Part shown: in pieces, positions 46,858 to 64,000 of the stretch
Layout of the letters: each line of letters begins with the position of its first letter
Numbering within the stretch: the stretch's first letter is position 1
From: Cryomorphaceae bacterium
Lineage (GTDB): Bacteria; Bacteroidota; Bacteroidia; Flavobacteriales_D; Cryomorphaceae
Reading direction: 5' to 3'
NCBI GenBank assembly: GCA_003565555.1
Contig: PXBH01000054.1
Coordinates: 1-64,000, forward strand
Length of the DNA: 64,000 nt
Notes under the pieces: model-generated
Told to the model about the DNA's origin: nothing
The model's database searches: none
The model's input: the letters and a program-made list of their open reading frames with translations, nothing else
Position numbers and translations under genes: made by a program

Positions 46858-49800
46858 CTATATTTCGTCGTCTTCCGATTCTTCCAAAGAAGTACCCGTG
46901 CGGGCCGTAAGGTCAGAAACAATTGGTGCGGCGATGAAAAGAGAAGAATACGTACCCACGATAACACCGAGCATCAAAGCGAAGATGAAACCTCGGATCG
47001 ACTCACCGCCGAAAACAAAGATGATGAGCAATACGACGAAGGTCGTCATAGAGGTATTCACGGTACGGCTCAAGGTGCTGTTCAGTGCCTTATTGATCAC
47101 GCTCGGGTGTCCTTCTTTTCGGTGATCCGCAACATACTCCCGTATACGGTCGAAGACCACCACAGTGTCATTGATCGAGTAACCGACCACCGTAAGGATG
47201 GCCGCGATAAATGCCTGATCGATCTCCAGGGAGAAGGGTAAAAACCCGTGGAACAAAGCGTAGATACCGAGCACAACAATCACATCGTGGAACATGGCCG
47301 CGATGGCACCCACACCGTACTGCCACTTCTTGAATCGGAATACAATGTAGGCGAAGATGATGAGAAGAGAGAAAATTACAGCAGACGTGGAAGATGTCCT
47401 GAAGTCGTCGGAAATAGAAGGATCCACCTTTCTGGACTCCATGATTTCGTAGGGCATATTCAAGCCGTCCAAACCTGCTGCCAGTGCGTCTTCCACCCGC
47501 TTATCCGCATCGCGGCTGTCATCGTCCACCAAAAATTTGGTGGTGATTTTTACTTGGTTTGCACTCCCGAAGGTTTTCACTTCAGGGGGAGCCGAGGTGC
47601 CGTCCTCGTAAACAAAAGTATTCCCGAGGGTGCCCCTGACCTCATCGAGCTCGGCGGGTTGGTCAAATTTTACCGTATAGGTGCGTCCCCCCGTAAAGTC
47701 TACGCCGAAATTGAGTCCGCGCATAAAAAGTGCGGAAACCCCGATAAGAATAACCACGGTCGAAACCCCGTAAAATGTTTTTCGTCTGGGGATGAAACGC
47801 ACCTTGGCATTGACCAAGATGTTTTTGGACCACTCCATGAAAAAGGAAATCGATTTTCCTTTGTCGAGACGCGCTTCGAAAATAAGCCGTGTAATGAAAA
47901 TGGCCGAGAAAAGCGAAGTAAAAATACCGATTATCAAGGTAGTAGCAAACCCTTTAATGGGTCCCGAACCGAAGGATACGAGTACAATTGCCGTCAGCAA
48001 TGTGGTGAGGTTGGCATCGACAATGGCTGAATAGGCCTTATTATAACCTTCCTTTAAGGCTGCTTTCACTCCCTTTCCGCGCCGGAGCTCTTCCCGGACG
48101 CGTTCAAAGATCAGCACATTGGCATCTACAGCCATACCGATGGTAAGAACGATACCTGCAATACCCGGCAGGGTCAGCGCCGCCTGAATAGACGCCAGCG
48201 CTCCGATCAGGAAAAAGAGGTTTGCCAAAAGGGCAATGTCAGAGACGATACCCGCGCCTTTGTAGTAGAATATCATGTAAAACAGTACAACAACCAAGGC
48301 AATAATGAACGACATCAAGCCGTCATTGATGTTTTGCTGTCCGAGTGACGGCCCGACTACTGATTCGTCAACGATGTTTGCCGGTGCGGGAAGGGCCCCT
48401 GCTTTCAAAAGATTGGCCAAATCGAGGGCTTCCTGAATCTGCTCATTACGGTTGCCCTGCCCCATGGATATGACAGATTGACCTGTGGCAATCTCACTCT
48501 GCACGACCGGCGCGGAGTATACATAATTGTCCAGTACAATGGCCACAACCCGCTTCGGTGTCTGGCTCGACGCTGCGGCCGTCATTTCCTTCCACTTCCT
48601 GGCGCCTTCACTGTTCATCGACATGGCGGCCTGCACCTGTCCGTTGATATCGTACTGCTGAGAGGCATCGGTAATTACAGAACCGTCGAGCGGGGCTCGG
48701 CCGTCTCTCGTATCTACTTTGATGGCATACAGCCGCATGACATTGTCATTGCGCTCATCGGGTTCAGCTGCCCAGAGCAGGCGAAGATCTTTGGGGAGGA
48801 TATCCCGCACCACCTTTTCGTTGAGCATCTTATTTACTTCGGCGGTGTCAGTGAGGAGTGCATACCCCACCACGGGGCCCTGGAAAGGCTGCCCGGATTG
48901 ATCCACGGAAGGAGCCAATTTTGTGAACAAGGGCAACCTTTTATTGCGCTCCTCTTCGGTCAAGTCACTGTCAAACTCATCATCGTCGAGCGACAAGAGA
49001 TCATCGTCCTCAACATCCGAGGTGTCTTCTCCCGCCAACAAATCATCTATGTCAAGGTCTCCGGCATCGTCGGTAATTTCCGCATCTTCGTCCTCAACCT
49101 CAACCTCATCTTCAACCTCTCCGTCGGGGTCAAAATCGGGAAAATACTTTTCGCTCAGGAGTGTATTGGCCTGATCGAGGTATGGGAGAATTTCGGAATT
49201 TTCAAATGTATTCCAGAATTCAAGGTTGGCCGTACTGCGAAGCTGTCGGCGCACGCGCTCTTTGTCTTTCACACCGGGAAGCTCCACCAAAATGCGCCCC
49301 GTAAACTGCTGCTTTTGAATGGTGGGTTGGGTCACGCCGAATTTATCGATTCGCGTACGCAGAATTTTCTCCGTATTGTTGATGGCAACGCGAGATTCCT
49401 CCCTGAGTTTTTCGATCACTTCGGCATTGGTCGCCTCGCGGGGAAAGCGGTCTTTATTGTCACGGCTGTGAAAAACCGTAGCCATCTTCGTCTCCGGCAT
49501 ACGCTGATCCCAAGCACGTGCGAAAAGGGTAACAAAATCTTCCTGACTCGCTTTGCGCATTTCTTTGGCATCTGCCACTACTTTGAGGAGGTCCTCATTT
49601 CGCGCATTGTTGCTCAGGTTGACGATCAAATCGGGTATAGAGACTTCCAAGGTCACGCTCATCCCGCCCGCGAGGTCGAGTCCCAAGTTAATCTGCTTGG
49701 CCTTAGACTCCTGATAGGTGTACCCGAAAAGCGGATAAATGGGTTCGGAAGCGTTCTTTGTCAGGAACTCCGTTTTAAATTCTTCCAGAAGCAGAGCTTC

Positions 49801-49971
49801 TTCCAGCATGTCGAGCTCACCGTCTGCGGCGCGTACCGAATCGAGTTGATTCAGTGCAAAGTTCTCAGCTTTTTTCTCGAAAGAGGAGGTAACAAAAGAA
49901 AATGAGATTTGAAACAAGCAGGCCAGGGTCAACAAAATGGTGAATAGCCGGATAGCGCCTTTATTCTGCAT
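46858..49971 (-). CDS. secDF: Protein translocase subunit SecDF (fused)
   Basis: A 1,037-residue fusion of SecD and SecF that uses the proton gradient to pull proteins through SecYEG. SecD motifs: LGLDLAGGMSVTLEV (near residue 96) and ALTLPGIAGIVLTIGMAVDA. SecF motifs: LNFGVDFTGGRTYTVKF and VGYSINDTVVVFDRIRE. About 12 membrane helices. An aspartate/glutamate-rich segment of some 60 residues lies at about 281-345 in the first periplasmic domain. Full length; monocistronic with its own promoter and terminator. Confidence 0.96.
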   Translation of the reverse strand: MQNKGAIRLFTILLTLACLFQISFSFVTSSFEKKAENFALNQLDSVRAADGELDMLEEALLLEEFKTEFLTKNASEPIYPLFGYTYQESKAKQINLGLDLAGGMSVTLEVSIPDLIVNLSNNARNEDLLKVVADAKEMRKASQEDFVTLFARAWDQRMPETKMATVFHSRDNKDRFPREATNAEVIEKLREESRVAINNTEKILRTRIDKFGVTQPTIQKQQFTGRILVELPGVKDKERVRRQLRSTANLEFWNTFENSEILPYLDQANTLLSEKYFPDFDPDGEVEDEVEVEDEDAEITDDAGDLDIDDLLAGEDTSDVEDDDLLSLDDDEFDSDLTEEERNKRLPLFTKLAPSVDQSGQPFQGPVVGYALLTDTAEVNKMLNEKVVRDILPKDLRLLWAAEPDERNDNVMRLYAIKVDTRDGRAPLDGSVITDASQQYDINGQVQAAMSMNSEGARKWKEMTAAASSQTPKRVVAIVLDNYVYSAPVVQSEIATGQSVISMGQGNRNEQIQEALDLANLLKAGALPAPANIVDESVVGPSLGQQNINDGLMSFIIALVVVLFYMIFYYKGAGIVSDIALLANLFFLIGALASIQAALTLPGIAGIVLTIGMAVDANVLIFERVREELRRGKGVKAALKEGYNKAYSAIVDANLTTLLTAIVLVSFGSGPIKGFATTLIIGIFTSLFSAIFITRLIFEARLDKGKSISFFMEWSKNILVNAKVRFIPRRKTFYGVSTVVILIGVSALFMRGLNFGVDFTGGRTYTVKFDQPAELDEVRGTLGNTFVYEDGTSAPPEVKTFGSANQVKITTKFLVDDDSRDADKRVEDALAAGLDGLNMPYEIMESRKVDPSISDDFRTSSTSAVIFSLLIIFAYIVFRFKKWQYGVGAIAAMFHDVIVVLGIYALFHGFLPFSLEIDQAFIAAILTVVGYSINDTVVVFDRIREYVADHRKEGHPSVINKALNSTLSRTVNTSMTTFVVLLIIFVFGGESIRGFIFALMLGVIVGTYSSLFIAAPIVSDLTARTGTSLEESEDDEI

Positions 49972-49998
49972 GCGTTATTGCAATTTTTTATCGAGCCG

Positions 49999-50029
49999 CA
50001 AATATAGACCTAAACAGGTAATTTCCCAA
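49999..50029 (-). promoter_or_regulatory. Promoter of secDF
   Basis: On the minus strand, TTG (50027-50029), exactly 20 bases, then TATATTTG (49999-50006), about 28 bases before the ATG. One of the best consensus matches in the window. Confidence 0.7.
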
Positions 50030-50122
50030 TGAATGGAAACTTAAGAACCAATTTACTGAATATGCGACGAATACCCCATACGTAATTTCCCGTTTTTGGA
50101 TTCAAAGAATGTTCAAATCGGG

Positions 50123-50156
50123 TTGATTTCACCTTGGAGAATACTTCCTACCTTTG
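50123..50156 (+). promoter_or_regulatory. Promoter of the FG-GAP T9SS gene
   Basis: TTG (50123-50125), 23 bases, then TACCTTTG (50149-50156), 25 bases before the ATG; divergent from the secDF promoter. Confidence 0.65.
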
Positions 50157-50180
50157 AAGACACACTGCAGATAAGATTTT

Positions 50181-52409
50181 ATGGTAAGGCCTGTTGCATT
50201 CCTCCTGTTTCTCTCTTTCGGCCTGTCGGCAAATGCACAATTATTTTTTGAGCAGTCGACCGATATTCCTGTTTTTTCGGGTGACGGAACACCACTGCGC
50301 AGCGCATGGGCAGGCGGACTCAATGCCGTGCAGCTCTCGATGCTTGATGCGGATCTGGACGGAAATGAGGACGACATCTTTATTTTTGACCGAAGCGGCA
50401 ACCGCGTGCTGATCTTTATCGGTGAAGAGGAAAACGGGCTGCGTACCTACCGCTACGCGCCGGAATACGCGGAGGCCTTTCCGTACATGGAGCGCTGGGC
50501 TTTGCTACGCGATCTGAATTGTGACGGACAGCGCGACATATTCACATACAGCCCCATCGGCGGGGGCTTCGCATCTTTTGTCAATACTTCCGGCACGGAG
50601 GGCGAACTCGCTTTTGAATCGGACAATGAATTTATCATGAGTCGCTTTCAATTCAGTCCGACAAATTCATTTGAGACCAATATATATGTCAGTTCGCTCG
50701 ACATACCCGCCGTGACGGATTTCGACGGAGACGGCGATCTCGATATTTTTACCTTTTCGGTAACGGGCGTGCAGCTTGAGTACCACGAGAACCTCACCGT
50801 CGACTCGCTGGGCGAATGCGGTACCGGGCTCTACCGTGCGGCCAATCTCTGCTACGGACAATTTCGTGAAGGCTCCGAAAGTAACCAAGTATTTCTCGGG
50901 CAGCCGTGCTCCTTTAATGTCACAGATCCCAGAAGCGCAAATGCCGACGGTGCACGACATGTGGGCACCACCGTTACATCTTTTGATGCTACCGGCGACG
51001 GACTTCCCGACCTCCTGCTGGGCGGAGTGGGGTTTAACAACATTACCTTTTTGGAAAACAGTGTGGGCGTATCCGGATTGGACAGCATCATTGATTACCA
51101 ACCGGATTTCCCGACAAGTTTCGGCGCGCCGGCCGTGAATATTGACAATTTTGCCGCAACTTTTTACGAAGACATTACGGGCAACGGCATCCGCGACCTG
51201 GTGGTAGGTGTAAACGAACCCAATACAGCTGTAAACACACGTTCCGTATGGCTCTATGAAAACTTGGGCGCCGACAACGAACCGATTTTTTCTCCGGCTA
51301 CCGACAGCTTTCTCCAGTCTGACATGATCGATCACGGAGAGACGGCGGCACCGGCCTTTGCCGACATCAACGGTGACGGCCTGCCCGATATGGTCATCGG
51401 GTCTCGCGGTACCTTTGTGCAAGATGCCCAATTCAAGCCTGCGCTGTCCCTTTACCTCAACACGGGAACTTTGGAGAACCCGGCCTTCACTTTAGAAGAT
51501 CCCGATTGGCTTCAAGTATCGGAAATAGGCTTCGGCCAATACGTACACCCGAGTTTCGGTGACATCGACGGAGACGGTGATGTCGATTTGGTGATCGGTG
51601 ACTTTTCGGGACGCGTATTTCTTCTGCTCAATACCGCGGGGCCCGGCGCAGCTCCGACCTACGAGCTGGCGGGTGCACTCACGGCCGACGGAAGCGCCAT
51701 CGATGTGGGCCAAATTGCAACACCCCAGCTCTTTGACCTCGACGGCGACGGCAAGCAGGATCTTATCATCGGTGAACGCAACGGCAGTATCAAGTTTTTT
51801 CGCAATACAGGCGGCCCGGGAGGCTTCTCCTTCACCCTTGAAAATGACACCCTCGGAGGTATTTCAACAGTCGAATTCGGATTTTTTATCGGCAGCAGCA
51901 GCCCCCACTTCTTCAGGCATCAGGGCATCACCCACCTCCTTGTGGGGGTAGAGCGGGGTCGGGTCAGACTTTACGGGGATATCGACGGAAATGAGAACGG
52001 GACTTATACGCTGATTGATGACAATGCATTCGGCATTGAAGCGGGGCAAAAAGCGCGTCCCTTTGTTGTCGATATCAACCACGACGGTGCGCCCGACCTG
52101 TTTTGCGGAAGCATAGGCGGCGGAGTGCTCTGCTATGCGGGGGCCGCTTCGGTATCGGTTCGCAATTCAGATATCCGCCCTCCCCTGCTTCTCTACCCGA
52201 ATCCCGCAAGCGATATGTTGTACACAGACGGGAACCGCTTAGGCGAAGATGCCCCTTACATCGTATATGACCTTTCCGGAAAGGCGGTGAAAAACGGCCG
52301 CCTCAGGGGCGCAGGGCTGTCCGTAAGCGATCTTCCGAGCGGAGCGTACATCCTGTCCGTGACAGACCTCTCCGGCAATATGCACCGCGGACTTTGGATC
52401 CGGCAGTAA
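50181..52409 (+). CDS. FG-GAP/VCBS repeat protein with T9SS type A sorting domain
   Basis: A 742-residue secreted protein: signal peptide (MVRPVAFLLFLSFGLSANAQ), then a beta-propeller of FG-GAP/VCBS repeats with calcium-binding loops such as DADLDGNED, DLNCDGQRD, DFDGDGDLD, DATGDGLPD, DINGDGLPD, DIDGDGDVD, DLDGDGKQD and DINHDGAPD, and a type A sorting domain from about residue 670 (LLYPNPASDM, VYDLSGKAV, LPSGAYILSVTD). An integrin-like calcium-dependent propeller suggests adhesion or ligand binding on the cell surface; no enzymatic motif is seen. Monocistronic. Confidence 0.9.
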   Translation: MVRPVAFLLFLSFGLSANAQLFFEQSTDIPVFSGDGTPLRSAWAGGLNAVQLSMLDADLDGNEDDIFIFDRSGNRVLIFIGEEENGLRTYRYAPEYAEAFPYMERWALLRDLNCDGQRDIFTYSPIGGGFASFVNTSGTEGELAFESDNEFIMSRFQFSPTNSFETNIYVSSLDIPAVTDFDGDGDLDIFTFSVTGVQLEYHENLTVDSLGECGTGLYRAANLCYGQFREGSESNQVFLGQPCSFNVTDPRSANADGARHVGTTVTSFDATGDGLPDLLLGGVGFNNITFLENSVGVSGLDSIIDYQPDFPTSFGAPAVNIDNFAATFYEDITGNGIRDLVVGVNEPNTAVNTRSVWLYENLGADNEPIFSPATDSFLQSDMIDHGETAAPAFADINGDGLPDMVIGSRGTFVQDAQFKPALSLYLNTGTLENPAFTLEDPDWLQVSEIGFGQYVHPSFGDIDGDGDVDLVIGDFSGRVFLLLNTAGPGAAPTYELAGALTADGSAIDVGQIATPQLFDLDGDGKQDLIIGERNGSIKFFRNTGGPGGFSFTLENDTLGGISTVEFGFFIGSSSPHFFRHQGITHLLVGVERGRVRLYGDIDGNENGTYTLIDDNAFGIEAGQKARPFVVDINHDGAPDLFCGSIGGGVLCYAGAASVSVRNSDIRPPLLLYPNPASDMLYTDGNRLGEDAPYIVYDLSGKAVKNGRLRGAGLSVSDLPSGAYILSVTDLSGNMHRGLWIRQ

Positions 52410-52431
52410 ACACTGTCCCCGTTGCACAAGA

Positions 52432-52457
52432 AAGCCCGACACAAGTGCGTCGGGCTT
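52432..52457. terminator. Hairpin between convergent genes
   Basis: AAGCCCGAC and GTCGGGCTT pair around eight bases. Neither side has a good T run, so termination strength is doubtful. Confidence 0.55.
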
Positions 52458-52484
52458 CAGAATAATATGCGGGGTGCGCCGGTG

Positions 52485-53426
52485 TCAGGCGGTGATCACA
52501 CCCATATTGTCGAGTACGTCCATTACCTCCTTCACCGAATTGGCAGAGGTGTACAGCGCCTCTTTCTCCTGCTCATTTAGTTTGAGCTCGATGATTTCCT
52601 CGATACCGGCTTTACCGAGCTTGGTCGGAACACCCAGATAAATGTCTTTCAAGCCGTACTCACCTTGCAGCCAAGCGCATGAAGGGAAAATGCGTTTTTG
52701 GTCGCGAACCACAGCTTCTACCATTTGAGCGGCAGCGGCTCCCGGCGCATACCAAGCAGAAGTTCCGAGGAGGTTTACGATTTCTCCGCCGCCTTTCTTG
52801 GTGCGCTCAATGATGGCATCGAGCTTGCCTTCTTCAATCATCTCCGTCACGGGAATACCGGCTACGGTAGTGTACCGGGGGAGAGGCACCATAGTATCGC
52901 CGTGGCCGCCCATAAGCACCGCTTGGATGTCTTTTGGTGAAACGTTGAGCTCCATGGCGAGGAAAGAGCGGTAACGGGCCGTATCCAGTACGCCCGCCAT
53001 TCCGAATACCCGACGCGAATCGACATTTGCCGTAAGGTAAGCAGCGTAGGTCATCACATCAAGCGGGTTGCTCACGATAATGATTTTCGCATTCGGTGAA
53101 TACTTTACCGCATTTTCAGTTACGCTTTTTACAATGCCTGCATTGGTGGCGATCAAGTCGTCGCGGCTCATACCCGGCTTGCGGGGCAATCCCGAAGTAA
53201 TCACCACCACTTCGGAATCTTTGGTGCGCTCGTAGTCATTGGTTGAACCGACCACACGTGAGTCGTAGAGATTGATGGGAGAGGTTTCCCAGATATCGAG
53301 CGCCTTGCCTTCCGCAAAACCTTCCTTGATATCGAGGAGCACTACTTCGTTAGCAAGTTCTTTGTGGGCAATGACATTTGCGCAAGTGGCACCAACGTTG
53401 CCGGCACCTACTACAGTTACTTTCAT
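52485..53426 (-). CDS. mdh: Malate dehydrogenase
   Basis: A 313-residue NAD-dependent dehydrogenase of the lactate/malate family that interconverts malate and oxaloacetate in the TCA cycle. The nucleotide-binding loop GAGNVGATCA (residues 7-16) begins right after the start; the substrate-binding segment VITSGLPRKPGMSRDDL and the catalytic histidine in MGGHGDTMVP are present. The R-K-P-G-M-S-R loop favours malate over lactate. MKVTVVG (53426) is the family start; an ATG two codons upstream is possible and the longer open frame is not supported. Confidence 0.96.
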   Translation of the reverse strand: MKVTVVGAGNVGATCANVIAHKELANEVVLLDIKEGFAEGKALDIWETSPINLYDSRVVGSTNDYERTKDSEVVVITSGLPRKPGMSRDDLIATNAGIVKSVTENAVKYSPNAKIIIVSNPLDVMTYAAYLTANVDSRRVFGMAGVLDTARYRSFLAMELNVSPKDIQAVLMGGHGDTMVPLPRYTTVAGIPVTEMIEEGKLDAIIERTKKGGGEIVNLLGTSAWYAPGAAAAQMVEAVVRDQKRIFPSCAWLQGEYGLKDIYLGVPTKLGKAGIEEIIELKLNEQEKEALYTSANSVKEVMDVLDNMGVITA

Positions 53427-53470: not shown

Positions 53471-53657
53471 AGCGGAAGTAAACAATTAAGGTCCATGCCC
53501 GGCTGTGAATATTCCTTAAAGCGTTCTCAGGCGGGCATAACTGCTGTTCGGGAATAAGTGTATATTTAGCCGCTTTTACGCGCCCCCTTCCTGTCCCCAA
53601 AAAACGCCGGCTGCAAATATAAAGCCGGACGGGGCAACCCTCATTAATTAGAGCGTC

Positions 53658-54266
53658 TTGAAAGTGACAGATGTAAACAGTTTATCCGAAGATCAACTCA
53701 AGCAGTTGATAGAAGGATGCATAAAGAACCATCGGAAGAGCCAGGAAACAGTCTACAAGATGTTTTTCGGCAAGATGGCGGCCGTTTGCAGACGCTACAC
53801 CAACAATGATGATCGTGCAAAAGACATTTTGCAAGACGGCTTCATCAAGGTGTTTAAAAGTATGGAAAAATTCAATTTTGACGGATCTTTCGAAGGATGG
53901 GTCCGCAGGATTGTTGTGAATACGGCAATCGATCACGTTCGAAAGTCGAAAAAAGATTTCTTGCTTGCGAATGAAAGCAAAGACGTGGAAGCTTTTCGCG
54001 ATACGCTCTACGACGAGGAAGAACCCGAAACGCCCGTGGCGCTGACCTTAGAAGTAAGTGATGTGCGCAGGGGAATGGAGAAACTGTCCACCGCGTACCG
54101 CACCGTGTTTAACCTCTACGTTTTTGAGAATTATTCGCACCAAGAAATTGCAGATGCCCTCGATGTGACGGTGGGTACGAGTAAATCAAATTTGGCCAAG
54201 GCCAGGGCCAACCTTAAGAAAATACTGACCGAAGAACTTGAAAAACGCGATGGAACAAAGGTTTAA
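53658..54266 (+). CDS. ECF-type RNA polymerase sigma factor
   Basis: A 202-residue sigma-70 group 4 (ECF) factor. Region 2 spans about residues 25-97 (AKDILQDGFIKVFKSMEKF, then GWVRRIVVNTAIDHVRKSKK); region 4 spans about 130-192 with its helix-turn-helix (HQEIADALDVTVGTSKSNLA). The only start codons are TTG (53658) or GTG (53664), since an in-frame stop lies at 53649. A TATATTTA box at 53561-53568 is a near-consensus -7 element. It overlaps the following membrane PKD gene by 17 bases, the arrangement of a sigma factor with its regulator. Confidence 0.92.
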   Translation: MKVTDVNSLSEDQLKQLIEGCIKNHRKSQETVYKMFFGKMAAVCRRYTNNDDRAKDILQDGFIKVFKSMEKFNFDGSFEGWVRRIVVNTAIDHVRKSKKDFLLANESKDVEAFRDTLYDEEEPETPVALTLEVSDVRRGMEKLSTAYRTVFNLYVFENYSHQEIADALDVTVGTSKSNLAKARANLKKILTEELEKRDGTKV

Positions 54267-55551
54267 CTCTTTTGATCAGCAGGTAAAGCAAGCCTACGAA
54301 GGCCATGAATTGCCCTACGACCCGGATTCGTGGGATAAGCTTTCCTCCGAACTCGATAAAGCGGCTCCCGCTTCTTCTTCCTATTTTGCAGCCCTTACCG
54401 CAGGCGTTGCCGCAGTAGGACTTGTGTTTCTTTCCCTGCTCTTTATCCTTTACGGAAATAATGACCCTGCAGACACTGTTCAAGAAACCGAGCAGGTCAA
54501 AGGTGAGCAGCCGCATGAACAAATAACCGCAAGCTCCGAAGAGAGCGCCGGATATGCCGAAGAAGCCGACGGCACTACATCGGACACCCCCGAGGGTGAA
54601 GGAAAAGAAGGTTTCCGTGCGGACGAAACTTCTGCTGATTACGCCGACGCAAATACTGCAGCATCTGCTGCCTCCGAAACATCTTCGACGGCCCTTCAAA
54701 AAGAAGACGTCCCCGGCAGCGCATCACCGACAGACCCTTCAGTCCGCGGTGTTGCTGACGAGTCGAATGAGACCGTAGAAGGCGATTCGGAAAATGACAT
54801 GATCTCCTCTTCTGATGTTATCCGCGGATCGGAATCACTTAACCGTAAAACCGTGCGCACGAGTTGCACCGGTGCTACCATTCAATTTGATGCAGCGCAA
54901 GACTACGGGGAGGATGCCAAGTACCTCTGGAATTTCGGGGACGGTTTCTTCAGCAATGAAGCCCGCCCCTCGCACACCTTCAATAAATCGGGAACTTTTG
55001 ACGTATCGCTTTCCGTGACCTCTCCCGCCTCGGGCCAAATTACCTCCAATGTGGTCCAAGCCATGATCCGGGTGCTGGAAGGTCCGCGTGCACGCATGGG
55101 CGCCTACCCGACTTCCCCGAACACGGTTGAAATTGAAAACCTGAGTTCGGGTGAGAACCGCACCGAATGGTTAATCAGCGGCACTGCAGCAGAAAAAGAC
55201 GGCTCAGTGGTGCTGGACTTTGTCCCCGGAACTTCTCAGAAAATCCGACTCACCGCATCCGACAAAGCGGGCTGCGCAGACACCCTGTCAAAAGTAGTTC
55301 GATTTGCCCAAACCCAAAAGGCGGTAACTTTTACTCCGGATAAGCCTCTGGACTTCTCCGCAGTCCTGGAAGAGACACCCTCGCGGGTGCACATCTTCGA
55401 CGCGGTATCGGGTGAGCACGCCGCAGATATTGAAGGTACGGTTTGGCATGCACCTGAAGAGGCCCGCGGTCAAAAATATGTCTTCATGGCTGTGAGCAAA
55501 GGAAAAGGCTCTCCGATCGTGATTCGCGGTGACCTTACGGGGAAACCCTGA
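54250..55551 (+). CDS. Membrane-anchored PKD-domain protein, possible sigma regulator
   Basis: A 433-residue protein: a cytoplasmic N-terminus of about 43 residues (MEQRFNSFDQQVKQAYEGHE), one membrane helix (about 44-68, YFAALTAGVAAVGLVFLSLL), a long acidic, serine/threonine-rich and probably disordered linker (70-195), then a PKD domain near 205-262 with the canonical WNFGDG core and a second beta-rich domain to the end. One-helix topology, a short cytoplasmic head and overlap with an ECF sigma gene are what an anti-sigma or sensor protein would show, but I recognise no classical anti-sigma or FecR domain. ATG at 54250 preferred over a TTG four codons upstream. Confidence 0.8.
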   Translation: MEQRFNSFDQQVKQAYEGHELPYDPDSWDKLSSELDKAAPASSSYFAALTAGVAAVGLVFLSLLFILYGNNDPADTVQETEQVKGEQPHEQITASSEESAGYAEEADGTTSDTPEGEGKEGFRADETSADYADANTAASAASETSSTALQKEDVPGSASPTDPSVRGVADESNETVEGDSENDMISSSDVIRGSESLNRKTVRTSCTGATIQFDAAQDYGEDAKYLWNFGDGFFSNEARPSHTFNKSGTFDVSLSVTSPASGQITSNVVQAMIRVLEGPRARMGAYPTSPNTVEIENLSSGENRTEWLISGTAAEKDGSVVLDFVPGTSQKIRLTASDKAGCADTLSKVVRFAQTQKAVTFTPDKPLDFSAVLEETPSRVHIFDAVSGEHAADIEGTVWHAPEEARGQKYVFMAVSKGKGSPIVIRGDLTGKP

Positions 55552-55583
55552 AAACGCCTACCCGGCAATAAATTATTTCTCCG

Positions 55584-55612
55584 AGCGCACAGCCGAGCTG
55601 TGCGCTTTTTTT
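55584..55612 (+). terminator. Terminator after the sigma-PKD operon
   Basis: AGCGCACAGC and GCTGTGCGCT pair as ten base pairs around CGA, with a T run to 55612. It separates the sigma-PKD pair from the giant surface gene. Confidence 0.92.
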
Positions 55613-55738
55613 ATTTGTTCTCCCCGGTTCGCGGTTGATTGAAAAATAAGGCCGTCAACGGTACAACTTTCCCGAAAAACCTGCGTCAATTGAGCAAGTA
55701 TCGCCTCATCATCCTGCCGATAACTGACGCGGGTTTTG

Positions 55739-55746
55739 TATCTTTG
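55739..55746 (+). promoter_or_regulatory. -7 promoter element of the giant surface-protein gene
   Basis: A perfect TATCTTTG, 35 bases before the ATG. No TTG stands 17-23 bases upstream, so an alternative sigma factor or activator may provide the upstream contact. Confidence 0.5.
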
Positions 55747-55781
55747 TAGTTCAGGCAGCAACGCTGATTTCCATCCCATCT

Positions 55782-58700
55782 ATGAAAAGATTTTTACCGA
55801 ACTTTTTCCTGTTTTCCCTACTGGTAGTTACCTCAGTCGTTAACGGGCAAAACGACCCCGGTGATATTTCCAACTGCTACAACAGCAACATCACCTTTGC
55901 ATTTGATCCCGAGCCCGTTGACGGCGCTTTTGAACCGGATACAGATGTTGAGCTCTGCGTGACTTTTACGTATGTCCAAACCGCGGGGAATTGGATCCAC
56001 GGAGTTCAAATCCACCTGCCGGACGGATGGGACGAGAGCTCAATCAATCCCGCCAGCTTCAGCACCTCTTGCACAGGCGGCGCAGGCAGCTGGACTTGGC
56101 AAGGTTCGGGCACCTTTTACGGGAACAATTTCGGTATCGGATTTTACTACTTGGGAGGCGCCCTCAATTGGGGGCAATCTTGCCCCAACGGTACCTTCAC
56201 CATCTGCATCGATGTGACGGTGGATCCCGAATGCGGCGGACCCGGCAGCCCGCTCAACGGCGAGCTCATCCTTCCCGGCTTCTCGACCACGGGCGACAAC
56301 AACAGCACCGGCTCGGGCGGATGGAGCGGCCCTCCGGCTGTCTGCGACGGTGTGATCATCGACGCCACCGTGAATATTCCCACCGTGACCATCGACTGCT
56401 GTGACGCCGAAGCGGGAACCTCACCCGGCACCTTACCGATTTGCAACAACGGCCCCTTCGACCTTTTCGGCGAATTGGGCGCCCCCGTGGATGACGACGG
56501 ATTCTGGACCGAGCCCGACGGCACCGAACTACTGACTGCAGGCAACAGCTACATCTTCGATCCGCTTACGAGTGATCCCGGAGACTATATCTATACCGTT
56601 GAAGGTGACGACGGCTGCTTAAATACGAGCATCATCACCATGGAGTTCATTGAGCTGCCGCAAGCCGGTTTGATCAGCTGGTGTTCTTCTGCCCCGTTCA
56701 CGATTCAAGGTGAATTTACAGGCCTGGGCCTCCCCTTTCCCGACCCCACATGGAACGGTACGTGGACGGACCCGGCAGGAACGATTTTGCCCGACGGCTC
56801 GGGACCTATTGTGCCGGGCACCAATCCGCCCGGCATCTACACTTATGAATATCTGGACGGAAACAATTGTCCTACCACGACGACCGTCAATGTCAACATA
56901 GTACTCACAGATACAGACTCCGAGCCCGCCGCGAGTGCGGATATCTGTACTTCTGACGACCCCTTCAGCCCTTATGACCTTTTGGCGGGCAGCCCCGTAC
57001 CCTCGGCCTCTGCAAGCTGGATTTATGAACCTGCTTCGGGTGGGGTAGTCAACATACCCGGCGGTGCCAACGCCGTGATCAACCCGGCAAATTATTCGGG
57101 AGCGACCCCGGCCCAACCGCTGGAATCGGGATTTATGTGGTATTTCTTTGTCGATTTGACAGCAGGATGTTTCAGTATTGATACCGTCTTTATTGACGTA
57201 TTTGACCCGGTAAATACGGGAACCTTTACGGAAGTGAATCTTTGTATTTCGGATCCTCCGGTAAATTTGACGGACCTTTTGGAAGGGACACCCGACACGG
57301 GACTCACTTGGGAAGACGTGACTGCGGGAAGTGTAATTCCCGAAATACTGGATCCCGCGGATTACGACGAGAACGAAGTACTCCTGCTCAGCTACAGCGG
57401 AGGTCTGGAAGGCACTTCCTGTTTCTCCCTGACCAACATGGTCATCACCATCCTGCCTGATGACGCGGATGCGGGTGAATTTGCCTCCGTTGAGGTGTGT
57501 GAGACAGATGACGTGATCTGTTTGACAGACCTCTTGGGAGGAGATCCGCAAGTTACGGGGTCTTGGACCTCGCCGTCAGGGGTCGAGCAAAACTGTATTT
57601 TCATACCCGGTACTTCGGAACCGGGTATTTGGACCTACACAGTGATCACCAGCTGCGATACGGATACGCAAACCCTCGAAGTCAATGTGATCGACCAAGC
57701 CGATGCGGGGACAGACGGTGTTTTGACCGTTTGCACGAATGATACCGATGTACCCCTGATTAACGGCCTCGGCGGTACGCCCGATACGGGCGGAGAATGG
57801 TCCCTCGGGGGTACTCCGGTCGGAGATACGGTAAACGGCAACAGCGCAACCGACGGAGCGGTGTATACCTACACGGTGGGCACCGGATCGTGTCAAGACG
57901 TTTCCACCGTCACCATCGATCTGCAGGAGTCACCTTACGCCGGGCAAGCTCCGGCAGGTCAGGTGATTTTTTGCGATGATGCCGCGGCCGTCGATTTAAT
58001 CAACCTATGGACCGATGCCCCTGCGGGCGGCACCCAGACTTGGTCAGGTCCCGGCGGATTCACGGGATCAACACTGAATCCCGCCACCGCAGAATCGGGC
58101 ACCTACAGCCTGACGGTAACTTCTGCTCAATGCGGAATTACAACGGAAACAGTCGATATTTTAATCGAATCTGCCCCGAATGCAGGAACGAGCACCACAG
58201 TGACTGCCTGCCCCAATGCTACTGCAGATATTGACCTTCTGGCCGCCCTCGGCGGAACTCCGGGAGGCACATGGACGGCACCGCCGGGCGGCCCCGATAC
58301 GGGAATCTATTCACCCGGAGATCCCGCGGGAGACTACGTGTACAGCACAGCATCACCCTCGGGGCAATGCACCGACCTTGCAACAGTTACCGTAAATGTC
58401 ACGGCACTGCCCGACCCCGGAACGGACGGAGCGATTACCGTTTGCGAAGGCGACCCCTCCTTTCCTTTATTTGGTGAGCTCGGGGGAACGCCTGAAAACA
58501 CCGGTGGATGGACAGATCCGAACGGTGACTTGATCGGTGCTTGGGACGCGGAATTCGTTCCGGGAACTGATGACGCCGGGGTATACACCTACACGGTGGG
58601 AGACGGTGTCTGTCCCAACCTGACTGCGGAAGTCACCGTGACCGTGATACCCGATGCAAATGCGGGCAATAACAATACGGTAACCGCCTGCGAATCGCTC

Positions 58701-61700
58701 GGCTCCGTAGATCTCATCGGCTTTCTCGGCGGCACGCCCGATCCGGGAGGTACCTGGTCAGTGCCCAACCCCTACTTCCTGTCCGGGCAGTGCGGAACGA
58801 CCCAAAATATTTCATACACCGTCGACAACGGAACCTGTCAGGACGTGGCCATACTCACACTCACGGTAGAGTGCTTGCCGAATGCGGGGGGCGACGGAAC
58901 CCTTGATCTGTGTTCAAATGACCCCTGTTTTGATCTGGAAACGGGACTGACGGGCCCCTTCGATGCGGGCGGTACTTGGACCGACAGCGCGGGGGACACC
59001 GTCGGAGACAACCAATGTCCGAACACACTCGGCACAGGCGATACCTTCACCTATACGGTAGACGCAGTGAGCTGCAACGCAGATCAGGCAGAAGTGACGG
59101 TCAATGTGACCCCGTCCATGACAGCAGTCAACGTTGACGCCGTATGCGAAGCCAGCCAACTGACCTACGTGGTCAGCTTTGAAATCAACGGCGGTGCGGG
59201 ACCCTACGAAATCTCAGGGACGGAAATCACAGGGACGGAAACCACAACGGGCGTCTACACCTCCAACCCCGTTCCCGTCGGCACGAACTACAGCTTCACT
59301 GTGACCGACAACAGCACCTGTGCCGACCTCACCGTAAACGGTACTTCTCCTGCCTGTGCATGCCCTGCTGCAGTGACCTTCCTCAACGGTGACCAAACCG
59401 TCTGCGCGGGCAGTCCTGCCCAGCTAGAATTTGATGTGACCGGTGCTGCGCCCTTTGAAATCATCGTCAATGACGGAACCGACGACCTTGTTTTTTCCGG
59501 TTACAATCCCGGCGAAACCGTTGCCGTTACCCCGGCCGCGACGACAATCTACACACTGGTGTCTGCAAGCGATGCCAACTGTGCGGGAACGGCGGACGGT
59601 TCGGTCACCGTGAGTGTTGAGGACTTGCCCGATGCAGGCCCCGATGTTACGGAAACACTCTGCGCACAAGGCGGAAACCTGAACCTGAGCACTTTGGTGC
59701 CCGCGGGAACAGATCCGGGAGTTTTCAGCGGTCCGGGCGGTGATGTCACCACGGTTCCGAACAATCCGGCTTCTTCCGCTGTATACACCTACACTGTATC
59801 GGGAACGGTATGTCCGGACGACGTTGCCTCTTACGATATTACCATCCTGCCCGAGCTTTCCGTAACGAACATTGCCTCCGAGTGTAACCCCGCTCAAACG
59901 CAGTACACGGTTACTTTTGACATCGACGGGGGCACCGGCAATTACACCGTGACAGGAACCGTTGACGGAACTATAACGGGCAATACCTTCACCTCCGATC
60001 CACTGGATCCTGCCGCTGATTTAACTTACGGGTTCACCGTATCAGACGGCGGGACTTGTCCGGATGCCAATGTCAGCGGCGACGCACCGAACTGTGCCTG
60101 CCCGGCTACGGCTGCTCTCACGGGCGGTTCGCAAACCATTTGTGCAGGTGAGACCGCATCCCTTTCGGTAAACCTTGCGGGCGACGGCCCTTGGACGCTC
60201 ACCTATGATGCGGGCGGAACTACCGAAGGCCCCATCACCCTGAACGCCGGCGAAACCATCGATGTGACTCCTGCCGCGACGACGGTGTACTCCCTGATTT
60301 CCGTGAGTGATCAGAATTGTGACGGATCCGTTTCGGGCAATGTTACCGTCAACGTAGACACGCCGCCGAATGCGGGTCCCGATGTTGAGGCATTCCTTTG
60401 CGAACAAGGGGGAAACCTCAATCTCAACACCCTTCTTGACGGCGGCGCAGACGGCGGAGGAACTTTTGCGGGGCCGGGAGGCGGAAATGTCACCTCAGTT
60501 CCTTACACACCGGCTTCATCGGGAATTTACACCTATACCCCACCCGGAAATGCCTGCCCGAACGACGATGCGGAATATGATATCACCATTTACGAGGAAA
60601 TCAACGTATTTGATGTTTCGGCGACTTGTAATGCCGCGCAAACGGATTACACGGTAGTTTTCACCATTGAGGGCGGAACGGGCAACTATAACGTAACAGG
60701 TGAGGGCACCCTGACGGGAAATACCTTCACTTCCGACCCCATTGCCGTAGGAACCAACTATGGCTTTACCGTTGCGGATGACGGACCTTGCGACGAAACG
60801 GGTGTGATGGGAGTCGCGCCGAACTGCGCCTGCCCGGCAAGTGCCACCCTCACCGGCAGCAACCAAACCATCTGTCAGGGAGAAACCGCTTCACTTTCCT
60901 TAACCCTCGCGGGCGACGGGCCCTGGACCCTCACCTACGATGCGGGCGGAACTACAGAAGGCCCCATCATCCTGAACGCGGGGGAAACCATTGATGTGAC
61001 GCCGGCCGCGACCACCACGTATTCGCTTACATCCGTGAGCGATCAAAACTGCGACGGATCCGTTTCGGGGAGCATTACCGTCAATGTAGACAGCCCGCCG
61101 AATGCCGGACCGGATGTAACCGTACCCCCGCTTTGCGGAGGTCCGGGCGATTTGGATTTGGAAACTTTGCTTGACGGTGCCGCAGACGGCAACGGCGATT
61201 TCAGCATCGGAGGGAATGTGGTCACCACAGTACCGCTGACCTCAGCTTCTACGGGCGTGTACACCTACACCACGCAGGCAAACGCATGTCCCGCAGACGA
61301 TGCAACCTACGACATAACCATATACGATCCTATCGCGGTGACCAACCTCTCGGTAGAATGTAATCTGGCGCAAACCGAATACACGGTCAGCTTTATTATC
61401 ACGGGGGGTACGGGGAATTATACCCTGACCGGAGAAACGGAAGGAACCTTGGTCGGCAATACCTTCACTTCAGACCTGATCGACGGGGATGACCCTTACG
61501 AGATCATCATCTCAGATGACGGTCCTTGCGAGGAGGTAACCGTAGCCGATGCCAATCCGGACTGCGACTGCCTCGCAACGGGAAGTCTCTCGGGCAGCAC
61601 CGCAATTTGCGCGGGATCAAGTGCAGATATCACGGTCACTTTGGTCGGTGTGCCCCCATTCAGCATCACCTACGAAAACAGCAATGATCCCGGCAATCCG

Positions 61701-64000
61701 ACTACCCTGAACAATATCTTCAACGGACACACCATCACAGTAAATCCCGGGTCAAGTGCCACTTATACGCTTCTGAGCGTATCCGACGCAAACTGCACAG
61801 GCAGTGTCGAGGGCGATGCTGTGGACATTACCGTCGACAGTCCCATCAATGCGGGCAACGAGACCATCACCTGCGATTCGACGGGCGATACCTACACTGT
61901 AGTCTTCACCGCAACGGGAGGAACAGGAACACTCGAGGTGACCAATGCCACGGGAACGGGCCCTGTATACACCGGCGGCCCCTTCAATTCAGGTCAGGGC
62001 TATTCCATTACCGTGAGTGATCAGGGAAGCTGCCCTGATGTGGTACTCACGGGCGATCCTTTCACCTGTCCCTGCACCACCGAAGCGGGCAGCCTGATCG
62101 GTGACGGCTTCGAAGTTTGCACCAACGAGACTGTAACAGTAACCGGAGACGGAAATGAATTTTTGGACGGAAATGACACCTTCCAATTTGCCCTCCACGA
62201 CGGTGATGCAGACAACCTGGGAAATATTCTGTTGCTTTCTGACAACGGTACCTTCGGCTACGACGCCGCCCTTGAGACGGGAACGGTGTATTTCATCTCC
62301 GCCCTTGCGGGAAATGAGAACCCCCAAGGCAATGTGGACACGAACGATCCCTGCCTCTCGGTGAGCAACGGGCTCCCGATCCTATTCTATGACCTCCCGA
62401 CCGCCACATTTGTAGCAGATGTAACCGTATGCGAAGGCAGCGAAGCGGAACTCATTGTCAACTTCACGGGCCAAGGTCCGTGGACTTTCGATTACGAACT
62501 GAACGGAACTGAAGCAGAAACAGGTGTTGAAAGCGCGGGCAGCTCGGTTGTAATCAGTGTAACCGAACCGGGCACCTACGCCATTACCAATATTTCCGAT
62601 GCCAATTGCTCTGATGTTTCCGGCAGCACGGCTGAGGTAAACAATTTTGCCGTACCCACGGCCGTACTCGGAGGCGAACCCGAAGTATGTGAGAACAGCG
62701 GCGACGGACCGGAGGTTACTTTTACCGGAAACGGGCCCTGGACTTTCTCCTACAGCATCAACGGTGAAGAACAAGACCAGCAAATCACCACAACGCAAAA
62801 TCCCTACACCATAGCAGCGACCGATGCGGGAATTTATGCCCTCACTTCGCTGAACGATGTAAACTGTGCGGGTACGGTAAGCGGAACACTGAACGTGGTA
62901 CTGATTCCCCTGCCGGCAGCTACGCTCACGGGGGGTGGCTCCGTTTGTGCCGGGGACGAAGCGACTTTCAACGTGCAGGTAACGGGAACGGGGCCGTGGA
63001 CGGTCCAGTACGCGGTAGACGGTGTGGCACAGCCTGCCCTGACCTCGGATGTTCCCAATTTCAGCTTCCAATCGGGTATGAGCGGTACCTACACCGTGAC
63101 CTCTGTAACAGATGCCGTTTGTCAAGGCCTGAGCCATGACAACAACGCGGCACTGATAGTAAATCAACTTCCCGTCGGTGAACTGAGTACTTCCTCATCG
63201 CTCTTGTGCATCGGCGAAGAATTGGAACTGCAGTTTTCACTGGAAGGTACACCGCCCTTTGACGTGACTTACACCCTTAATGCCGACACTTTTCAGCTCA
63301 ACGGACTGACTGCCTCCCACACGGTAACACTCAATCCCGAAGTAGCCTTGATGGCCGAACTGGTCTTTATCGAAGACGGCTCGAATCCGTCCTGCTCCGC
63401 GGCCCAAAATGAATCGATTTTTGTGCAGGTTACCGAACTTCCGAATGCCCCCGTACTGACGGATGACACCATTTGCTCAGGTCAGGGGCCTGTACCGATC
63501 GGTACGGTATCGGGACCGGGATTGTCCTATGAGTGGACGCCCACCACGGGCCTCAGCGACCCTAAGGTGCCCAACCCCACGGTGACCCTGACGCATACCG
63601 GAATTTCTCCGCGCGTATTCACCTACGTGCTTACGGCGAGCAATGAAAACTGCTCGGCATCAGATACCGTAAACATCACCGTAGACCCGGGACCTCAAGC
63701 CCGCTTCCGATTCTCTCCCGATCCTGTATCGTCGGAAGATCCGCGGATTTTCTTCAACAATACCAGCGTCGCCTCAGAAACCACCACTTTCTTCTGGGAT
63801 TTCAGCGGCCTCGGCACATCAACGAGCCGCAACCCGGATTTCAGATTTCCGGAAGGAACGGCCGGAGACTATGCAGTAACGCTCAACGCCACGGACCAAC
63901 TGACAGGCTGCTCGGATTCCTACTCCGCCAATGTGCGTGTGCGGAATCAAATGCTTGTATACGTACCCAATGCATTTACGCCCGACGGAGACGGTAAGAA
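55782..64000 (+). CDS. Giant modular T9SS type B surface protein (3'-truncated)
   Basis: The frame opens at ATG 55782 and stays open to the last base: more than 2,739 residues, with the stop beyond the window. Order of parts: signal peptide (MKRFLPNFFLFSLLVVTSVV ... NGQ); an N-terminal Cys-containing domain to about 56400; a run of about 11 Ig-like modules of 75-95 residues; a compound array (59358-62070); an unrelated domain (62075-62400); four GxGPW-type modules; a PKD-like domain (63690-63935, FFWDFSG); then MLVYVPNAFTPDGDGK, the opening of the gliding-motility/CHU C-terminal type B sorting domain. It should be exported by Sec then T9SS and attached to the surface, like SprB-class adhesins. 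No enzyme motif is seen. Confidence 0.93.
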   Translation, partial: MKRFLPNFFLFSLLVVTSVVNGQNDPGDISNCYNSNITFAFDPEPVDGAFEPDTDVELCVTFTYVQTAGNWIHGVQIHLPDGWDESSINPASFSTSCTGGAGSWTWQGSGTFYGNNFGIGFYYLGGALNWGQSCPNGTFTICIDVTVDPECGGPGSPLNGELILPGFSTTGDNNSTGSGGWSGPPAVCDGVIIDATVNIPTVTIDCCDAEAGTSPGTLPICNNGPFDLFGELGAPVDDDGFWTEPDGTELLTAGNSYIFDPLTSDPGDYIYTVEGDDGCLNTSIITMEFIELPQAGLISWCSSAPFTIQGEFTGLGLPFPDPTWNGTWTDPAGTILPDGSGPIVPGTNPPGIYTYEYLDGNNCPTTTTVNVNIVLTDTDSEPAASADICTSDDPFSPYDLLAGSPVPSASASWIYEPASGGVVNIPGGANAVINPANYSGATPAQPLESGFMWYFFVDLTAGCFSIDTVFIDVFDPVNTGTFTEVNLCISDPPVNLTDLLEGTPDTGLTWEDVTAGSVIPEILDPADYDENEVLLLSYSGGLEGTSCFSLTNMVITILPDDADAGEFASVEVCETDDVICLTDLLGGDPQVTGSWTSPSGVEQNCIFIPGTSEPGIWTYTVITSCDTDTQTLEVNVIDQADAGTDGVLTVCTNDTDVPLINGLGGTPDTGGEWSLGGTPVGDTVNGNSATDGAVYTYTVGTGSCQDVSTVTIDLQESPYAGQAPAGQVIFCDDAAAVDLINLWTDAPAGGTQTWSGPGGFTGSTLNPATAESGTYSLTVTSAQCGITTETVDILIESAPNAGTSTTVTACPNATADIDLLAALGGTPGGTWTAPPGGPDTGIYSPGDPAGDYVYSTASPSGQCTDLATVTVNVTALPDPGTDGAITVCEGDPSFPLFGELGGTPENTGGWTDPNGDLIGAWDAEFVPGTDDAGVYTYTVGDGVCPNLTAEVTVTVIPDANAGNNNTVTACESLGSVDLIGFLGGTPDPGGTWSVPNPYFLSGQCGTTQNISYTVDNGTCQDVAILTLTVECLPNAGGDGTLDLCSNDPCFDLETGLTGPFDAGGTWTDSAGDTVGDNQCPNTLGTGDTFTYTVDAVSCNADQAEVTVNVTPSMTAVNVDAVCEASQLTYVVSFEINGGAGPYEISGTEITGTETTTGVYTSNPVPVGTNYSFTVTDNSTCADLTVNGTSPACACPAAVTFLNGDQTVCAGSPAQLEFDVTGAAPFEIIVNDGTDDLVFSGYNPGETVAVTPAATTIYTLVSASDANCAGTADGSVTVSVEDLPDAGPDVTETLCAQGGNLNLSTLVPAGTDPGVFSGPGGDVTTVPNNPASSAVYTYTVSGTVCPDDVASYDITILPELSVTNIASECNPAQTQYTVTFDIDGGTGNYTVTGTVDGTITGNTFTSDPLDPAADLTYGFTVSDGGTCPDANVSGDAPNCACPATAALTGGSQTICAGETASLSVNLAGDGPWTLTYDAGGTTEGPITLNAGETIDVTPAATTVYSLISVSDQNCDGSVSGNVTVNVDTPPNAGPDVEAFLCEQGGNLNLNTLLDGGADGGGTFAGPGGGNVTSVPYTPASSGIYTYTPPGNACPNDDAEYDITIYEEINVFDVSATCNAAQTDYTVVFTIEGGTGNYNVTGEGTLTGNTFTSDPIAVGTNYGFTVADDGPCDETGVMGVAPNCACPASATLTGSNQTICQGETASLSLTLAGDGPWTLTYDAGGTTEGPIILNAGETIDVTPAATTTYSLTSVSDQNCDGSVSGSITVNVDSPPNAGPDVTVPPLCGGPGDLDLETLLDGAADGNGDFSIGGNVVTTVPLTSASTGVYTYTTQANACPADDATYDITIYDPIAVTNLSVECNLAQTEYTVSFIITGGTGNYTLTGETEGTLVGNTFTSDLIDGDDPYEIIISDDGPCEEVTVADANPDCDCLATGSLSGSTAICAGSSADITVTLVGVPPFSITYENSNDPGNPTTLNNIFNGHTITVNPGSSATYTLLSVSDANCTGSVEGDAVDITVDSPINAGNETITCDSTGDTYTVVFTATGGTGTLEVTNATGTGPVYTGGPFNSGQGYSITVSDQGSCPDVVLTGDPFTCPCTTEAGSLIGDGFEVCTNETVTVTGDGNEFLDGNDTFQFALHDGDADNLGNILLLSDNGTFGYDAALETGTVYFISALAGNENPQGNVDTNDPCLSVSNGLPILFYDLPTATFVADVTVCEGSEAELIVNFTGQGPWTFDYELNGTEAETGVESAGSSVVISVTEPGTYAITNISDANCSDVSGSTAEVNNFAVPTAVLGGEPEVCENSGDGPEVTFTGNGPWTFSYSINGEEQDQQITTTQNPYTIAATDAGIYALTSLNDVNCAGTVSGTLNVVLIPLPAATLTGGGSVCAGDEATFNVQVTGTGPWTVQYAVDGVAQPALTSDVPNFSFQSGMSGTYTVTSVTDAVCQGLSHDNNAALIVNQLPVGELSTSSSLLCIGEELELQFSLEGTPPFDVTYTLNADTFQLNGLTASHTVTLNPEVALMAELVFIEDGSNPSCSAAQNESIFVQVTELPNAPVLTDDTICSGQGPVPIGTVSGPGLSYEWTPTTGLSDPKVPNPTVTLTHTGISPRVFTYVLTASNENCSASDTVNITVDPGPQARFRFSPDPVSSEDPRIFFNNTSVASETTTFFWDFSGLGTSTSRNPDFRFPEGTAGDYAVTLNATDQLTGCSDSYSANVRVRNQMLVYVPNAFTPDGDGK
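57465..59120 (+). repeat. Tandem Ig-like module array (type A modules)
   Basis: Protein-coding repeats aligned on a conserved cysteine codon at 57498, 57732, 57972, 58209, 58443, 58689 and 58911, giving spacings of 234, 240, 237, 234, 246 and 222 bases. Each unit reads xAGxxxxxxxC ... DLxxxLGGTPxxGGxW ... GxYTYTVxxxxC. More diverged copies precede, with the aligned cysteine near 56443, 56685, 56949 and 57244. Confidence 0.88.
59358..62070 (+). repeat. Compound super-repeat of three module types
   Basis: Units begin at an (A/D)CxCxA motif at 59358, 60096, 60828 and 61566, with lengths 738, 732, 738 and 504 bases. Full units contain a GxxPWT-like Ig module, a type A module and a SprB-like GGTGNYTVTG module. 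The last unit lacks the type A module. Units two and three are very similar at DNA level around 60181-60295 and 60913-61027. Confidence 0.88.
62400..63470 (+). repeat. Four Ig-like GxGPW modules
   Basis: Modules centred on GQGPWTF (about 62470), GNGPWTF (about 62732), GTGPWTV (about 62984) and GTPPFDV (about 63244), each with an upstream cysteine (VCEGSEAEL, VCENSG, VCAGDEATF, LCIGEELEL) and a downstream SDANC-like motif; period about 250-262 bases. Confidence 0.82.

Follow-up and report, generated by a model that had tools for sequence, protein, structure and literature searches.

Why is the gene for an extracytoplasmic function (ECF) sigma factor coupled to the gene for a membrane protein with a PKD domain, directly in front of a gene for a giant adhesin? 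The question is raised by a 64,000-nucleotide stretch of a Cryomorphaceae bacterium (assembly GCA_003565555.1, contig PXBH01000054.1, positions 1 to 64,000), here called the window, in which a sigma gene (53658..54266) is followed by the gene for a 433-residue protein (54250..55551), here called the PKD protein, and then by a gene for a 2818-residue adhesin of the type IX secretion system (T9SS), all on the + strand. The answer that we consider probable, taken as a whole, is an autoregulated sigma/anti-sigma pair that controls the adhesin and whose anti-sigma factor is plugged into the T9SS. Judged from comparative sequence evidence, the PKD protein very probably functions as an anti-sigma factor, and the pair is highly likely to control both the operon that encodes it and the giant gene; the T9SS itself seems a reasonably good candidate for the thing that is sensed. 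The features that can be read from the sequences are the head-helix-tether plan of the PKD protein, its cargo-type outer end, and a promoter-like motif that precedes the sigma and giant genes as well as a small number of further genes for type B cargo.

Conservation of the sigma/PKD protein pair

Homologues of the PKD protein were collected in a search of 60 related genomes, which gave full-length homologues in the window's family (the family group of Cryomorpha ignava) and in other families of the order, and in a class-wide profile search of 296 Bacteroidia genomes, which added further families. Judged by these relatives, the organism belongs to the Flavobacteriales and probably to the Cryomorphaceae or their vicinity. 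Many of the loci are contigs of metagenome-assembled genomes (MAGs), and those within one family are related by descent. For 86 of 86 distinct full-length homologues, the gene immediately upstream encodes a sigma factor, and in most cases the two genes overlap. (The automatic test gave 85/86; the exception, L088, also has a sigma gene on inspection.) The preliminary description of this DNA had asked whether the two genes recur together in other genomes or are rarely found together; they are together in every homologue. The window's own genome has a second such pair (C165; L039 5025-6729), in which a sigma gene is joined to a protein with head, transmembrane helix, PKD domain, and a recognisable CHU_C domain.

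The sigma open reading frame (ORF) matches the sigma-70 models of Pfam and NCBIfam (Pfam Sigma70_r2, 1.4e-15; Sigma70_r4_2, 9.9e-14), and the protein has the two sigma-70 regions, 2 and 4, and the small size of an ECF factor. No curated sigma subfamily of NCBIfam is reached above its cut-off, the nearest Bacteroidetes model, TIGR02985, scoring 92 bits against a cut-off of 126. The ATG of the PKD protein gene, at 54250, lies inside the sigma gene, and the ORF coordinates bear out an overlap of exactly 17 bp, as had been described. The sigma ORF that had been given as beginning at 53658 also stands, but translation more probably begins at GTG 53664 than at TTG 53658, since the TTG directly adjoins the predicted -10 element (53654-53657; whole region, 53654-53670). 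In relatives the sigma start codon lies a few bases 3' of the predicted -10 element, which suggests that the sigma mRNA is probably leaderless.

Neighbourhood maps from the 60-genome search often place mdh and secDF near the pair and a cargo gene ending in a T9SS C-terminal domain (CTD) downstream; the downstream ORF encodes a long CTD-ended protein in 15 of the 17 complete cases. In the window, positions 46861-53426, upstream of the pair, encode SecDF, a type A CTD/FG-GAP protein, and malate dehydrogenase, and this gene order recurs in several relatives. Two contigs that carry this Flavobacteriales locus (L078 and L079) are titled Salinisphaeraceae and Euryarchaeota, and are probably mis-binned or mis-titled MAG contigs.

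A head module found behind sigma genes

The PKD protein begins with a cytoplasmic head of 44 residues, for which AlphaFold predicts helices at 7-17 and 25-38 (the two-helix part, residues 1-38, is encoded by 54250..54363) and in which F8 and W28 are near-invariant. Profile A3, which covers residues 1-70, has matches in 196 of the 296 genomes of the class. In a sample of A3-matching proteins, 20/20 are encoded immediately after a sigma gene regardless of what follows the head, and the outer parts of head proteins are diverse: PKD/CHU_C, CHU_C alone, barrels of the outer-membrane protein (OMP) type, PorP/SprF barrels, or short tails. From its distribution, the head appears to be a widespread anti-sigma-like module of the Bacteroidota. 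It had been put forward as a possibly undescribed type, a claim that is not supported, since the same head lies beside sigma genes wherever this was checked across the Bacteroidia, in proteins with a plan like that of Dma (PMC13088901). As described there, Dma is a 'dual membrane-spanning' anti-sigma factor of Bacteroides thetaiotaomicron, encoded next to ECF21 sigma genes, with an N-terminal sigma-binding domain, a transmembrane helix, a long disordered tether, and a C-terminal barrel.

No curated anti-sigma family in Pfam or NCBIfam (for example, of the RskA, zinc-finger, or FecR type) was matched by the whole PKD protein or by the head alone, at E values up to 1. This would fit a protein of the surface or inner membrane that merely shares the operon and has no part in regulating the sigma factor, but such a protein would hardly account for a universal pairing, nor for a head that always lies behind a sigma gene while the remainder of the protein varies, and we regard it as very improbable. 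Among solved structures, the head gave matches to designed TIM barrels and to Sec63, which were judged coincidental.

At five loci (L228, L235, L237, L238, and L045) two to four copies of the head stand in tandem ahead of the membrane helix; such tandem heads might bind several sigma molecules. The window's genome also carries a third pair of sigma factor and head protein (C157; L183 1259-3297), whose head protein has 501 residues, a barrel-like end, and a Dma-like plan, and has no match in Pfam.

The outer end of the PKD protein

The head is followed by a single transmembrane helix (residues 45-69; 54382..54456), predicted by AlphaFold and by hydrophobicity in homologues, and then by a disordered tether (residues 70-200; 54457..54849) defined by a low predicted local distance difference test score (pLDDT), which stays below 50 over residues 69-181. 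In homologues a median of 137 residues separates the transmembrane helix from the WNFGDG motif of the PKD domain. No N-terminal Sec signal peptide is present, the membrane helix being preceded by the hydrophilic 44-residue head. Beyond the tether, residues ~200-433 are confidently folded (block means mostly pLDDT 86-97) and comprise the PKD domain (residues 202-262; 54853..55035; Pfam PKD_4, 6.5e-13), a second immunoglobulin (Ig)-like domain (residues ~279-354; 55084..55311), seen as high-pLDDT strands and similar by profile to the penultimate domain of T9SS cargo, and a strongly diverged domain resembling a T9SS type B CTD (residues ~358-433; 55321..55548). The earlier picture of a one-helix protein with a cytoplasmic head and a PKD ectodomain was thus right in its topology and incomplete in its outer part, which holds the Ig-like and CTD-like domains as well as the PKD domain. 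There is no C-terminal outer-membrane beta-barrel according to Pfam, and AlphaFold shows Ig-like domains in its place.

The last domain is identified chiefly through relatives. CHU_C, the 'Type IX secretion signal domain' of Pfam, is found in 18 of the 24 aligned homologues (best, 2.3e-16) and the type B sorting domain TIGR04131 in 11 of them, and a cargo-CTD profile detects the domain in 21/24 at E values from 1e-33 to 1e-6; PF13585 and TIGR04131 do not recognise the window copy on its own. A family-level profile of the domain aligns with cargo CTDs at 97-98% probability (hhalign). Because the family profile matches cargo CTDs, relatives carry CHU_C, and the fold is confident, the C-terminal domain is judged to descend from a type B CTD, and by these profiles the PKD-Ig-CTD ectodomain reproduces the tail of a T9SS type B cargo protein. 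(A Foldseek search with the ectodomain returned generic Ig-domain chains, the nearest bacterial one being the grappling-hook protein GhpA of Aureispira, and did not identify the CTD.)

The giant adhesin gene and a common promoter motif

As had been noted, the PKD protein gene is followed by a giant T9SS gene (55782..64000, continuing to contig position 64238), whose product ends in a PKD domain and a T9SS type B sorting domain. A terminator-like hairpin with a T-run, found by eye (55584..55613), lies after the putative anti-sigma gene, and similar hairpins were seen by eye behind it in several relatives; the giant gene therefore probably depends on promoters of its own. Two candidates are present: a predicted ECF promoter, ACAACTT-N14-CGTC (55663..55687), and a sigma-A-like -10 box, TATCTTTG (55739..55746), which was picked out by eye and fits the flavobacterial sigma-A consensus TAnnTTTG (PMC9723704). 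The operon of the pair has a related predicted ECF promoter, GCAACC (-35) and CGTC (-10) separated by 14 nt (53634..53657), a motif found in homologous loci.

In the window's family, GGCAACC-N14/15-CGTC precedes 8/8 sigma genes, and [AG]CAACTT-N14-CGTC precedes the giant gene in all seven loci that have such an interval and could be tested. More widely, 49 of 82 loci have [AG]CAAC-N15..17-CGTC upstream of the sigma gene, where shuffled sequences would give 0.24. The spacer is 15 in 13 loci and 16 in 36, any other spacer that was tried gave 0-4 loci, and the reverse strand gave 0-1 (background rate, 0.018 per 300 bp). Within the window's genome, ACAACTT-N14-CGTC has three sites, all just upstream of type B cargo genes: the giant gene of the window and two others, at C207 (9217-9241, 22 bp upstream of a gene for 1288 residues) and C149 (3081-3105, 43 bp upstream of a gene for 1089 residues). 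By this placement the C207 and C149 genes are probable further members of the regulon. A strict motif near the start is seen in 4 of the 39 CHU_C (type B cargo) genes of this genome, against 0.09 expected (one of the four, C188, is doubtful, its site running across the start assigned to the ORF), and in 0 of 20 type A genes. None of nine other ECF sigma genes of the genome is preceded by the motif.

The preliminary description had proposed a membrane sensor of an envelope or extracellular cue that releases the sigma factor for surface-protein genes. Because the pairing is universal and a common promoter motif stands before the sigma and giant genes, the anti-sigma role and the control of surface-protein genes are supported. 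The generic extracellular cue does not fare as well: with an ectodomain built as a cargo tail, the secretion system is the likelier thing to be sensed.

A sister form with a PorP/SprF receptor

The strongest hint that the switch reads T9SS type B recognition comes from a family, f24, in which six of the six genomes examined (L324, L325, L326, L327, L328, and L329) have an operon of sigma factor, predicted anti-sigma factor, and CTD protein. Here the anti-sigma protein has tandem heads and a C-terminal PorP/SprF barrel (E values from 1.7e-12 to 5.7e-24 in the five scanned together, and 2.8e-23 in the sixth), and the third gene encodes ~215 residues with a lipoprotein-like start and a type B CTD, found by Pfam in five of the six and by the cargo-CTD profile in all six. 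PorP/SprF proteins bind type B CTDs and act as shuttles or anchors (PMC9143113, PMC12618676). The window's own genome encodes 14 PorP/SprF proteins. The signal is on the anti-sigma protein in one form of the system and the receptor is on it in the other. In sigma trees the CTD form and the PorP/SprF form lie close together. (The best tree suggests that the PorP/SprF form is nested within the CTD form, a placement that the approximately unbiased (AU) test leaves without support, p 0.207.)

The sister form bears on two other explanations of the PKD protein. The first is an ordinary envelope or ligand sensor, in which the ectodomain would have been borrowed from cargo as a sturdy fold, would bind a glycan, the cell wall, or a surface ligand, and would signal through regulated proteolysis in the manner of RseA/RsiV-like systems, the T9SS taking no part. 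PKD domains are indeed generic, and the CTD-like domain is most diverged in the window's own genus while its fold is kept. Against this, the CTD is kept at full length and in recognisable form across many families, the version with a PorP/SprF barrel and a CTD lipoprotein retains both halves of the T9SS recognition pair, and the predicted targets are T9SS type B genes; we therefore consider such a sensor unlikely.

The second would make the CTD-like end a passive trans-envelope anchor, fixed in the outer membrane and sensing envelope geometry or tension, as the Dma barrel might, rather than the state of secretion. That the head, helix, and disordered tether are common to Dma (PMC13088901), and that several head proteins of the class end in outer-membrane barrels, would both be expected of an anchor. 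The choice of anchor would not, for it is a cargo signal or the receptor of that signal instead of any barrel, and the genes predicted to be regulated are type B cargo genes, all of which leaves the passive anchor as a distinctly unlikely explanation.

A proposed model for a T9SS-linked switch

In the favoured model, an anti-sigma factor coupled to the T9SS, the sigma factor would be kept at the inner membrane by the head, the disordered tether would cross the periplasm, and the CTD-like end would dock on an outer-membrane part of the T9SS (the SprA translocon or a PorP/SprF shuttle) in the same way as a real type B cargo protein. At a free docking site the CTD would engage, and strain or cleavage of the tether would free the sigma factor to make more adhesin; when the sites are filled by adhesin, the CTD would be displaced and the sigma factor would stay held. 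This homeostatic direction, in which a free dock frees the sigma factor, is favoured only tentatively, and the data would fit a signal running the other way just as well. More generally, the anti-sigma protein might be a membrane-tethered, stalled T9SS substrate through which export capacity sets adhesin expression, with the sister form carrying the receptor on the anti-sigma protein and the signal on the lipoprotein, an idea that we hold to be quite possible while not quite leaning toward it.

Several observations weigh against this model. Both sigma binding by the head and docking on the T9SS are inferred. Co-occurrence with the T9SS could not discriminate, because SprA is near-universal (288 of the 296 genomes sampled). 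The window copy and two relatives of the same genus match the cargo-CTD profile weakly (E 0.008-0.02; window copy, 0.008). The type B CTD of F. johnsoniae has five motifs, each needed for secretion (PMC12618676), and the CTD-like domain of the window's genus lacks motifs such as FTPNGDG, so that in this genus it may have ceased to function as a signal. Total counts of the promoter motif in the window's genome show no enrichment (12, against 15 in a reversed control), the signal lying in the position of the sites and not in their number, and motif counts within the window's family come from loci related by descent and are not fully independent. Outside that family, the cargo gene has a motif of its own in only 7 of 61 cases, perhaps because it is co-transcribed.

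Comparison with known systems

Dma is the closest parallel in plan. The points shared with it (PMC13088901) are the N-terminal head, the single inner-membrane helix, the long disordered tether, the adjacent ECF sigma gene, and the occurrence in Bacteroidota, and some of the related head proteins in this analysis have a terminal barrel of the OMP type. The window protein differs in that it carries, on its outer side, a PKD-Ig-CTD region of the T9SS cargo type instead of a C-terminal beta-barrel, and in that its predicted targets are type B adhesins, whereas those given for Dma are vesiculation or polysaccharide genes. Like T9SS type B cargo (SprB-like; TIGR04131/PF13585), the protein has PKD/Ig domains ahead of a C-terminal domain that in most relatives is recognisable as a type B sorting domain, but it has a cytoplasmic head and a membrane anchor in place of a Sec signal peptide, and in this genus a diverged CTD.

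Two systems tie ECF sigma factors to the T9SS. In the PorA-PorXY-SigP circuit of Porphyromonas gingivalis, a CTD-bearing protein likewise stands upstream of an ECF sigma factor with links to T9SS genes, but PorA is a surface protein that works through a two-component system, in Porphyromonas only and with no anti-sigma factor (PMC7712824). The SM6 sigma-ECF regulon of Flavobacterium psychrophilum has CGT-box ECF promoters both at T9SS genes and in front of an operon for a sigma factor and its anti-sigma factor; its listed targets, however, are T9SS machinery and not giant cargo, and the paper gives no architecture for the anti-sigma factor (PMC9723704). No anti-sigma factor with a T9SS CTD or a PorP/SprF domain was found in a search of the open-access literature. 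As far as that literature goes, the head-helix-tether plan is already known from Dma, and the T9SS-cargo end and the PorP/SprF form appear to be new.

The literature searched offers no explanation of how Bacteroidota adjust the output of very large T9SS adhesins to their capacity for export, and PorA-PorXY-SigP in Porphyromonas is the only described circuit found there that leads from a CTD protein to a sigma factor. An anti-sigma factor that ends in a cargo signal or in its receptor would connect transcription with secretion directly and in a way that can be tested. The arrangement occurs in a dozen or more families of the class and would extend the Dma idea of anti-sigma factors that reach from the cytoplasm to the outer membrane. 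The flagellar checkpoint provides the general precedent. Its anti-sigma factor, FlgM, is tied to a secretion apparatus and times the production of exported parts; it is soluble and is exported whole by the type III system, and it is unrelated to the window protein in both sequence and topology. If the proposed link is correct, the T9SS would have an FlgM-like checkpoint of its own, built on trans-envelope anti-sigma factors.

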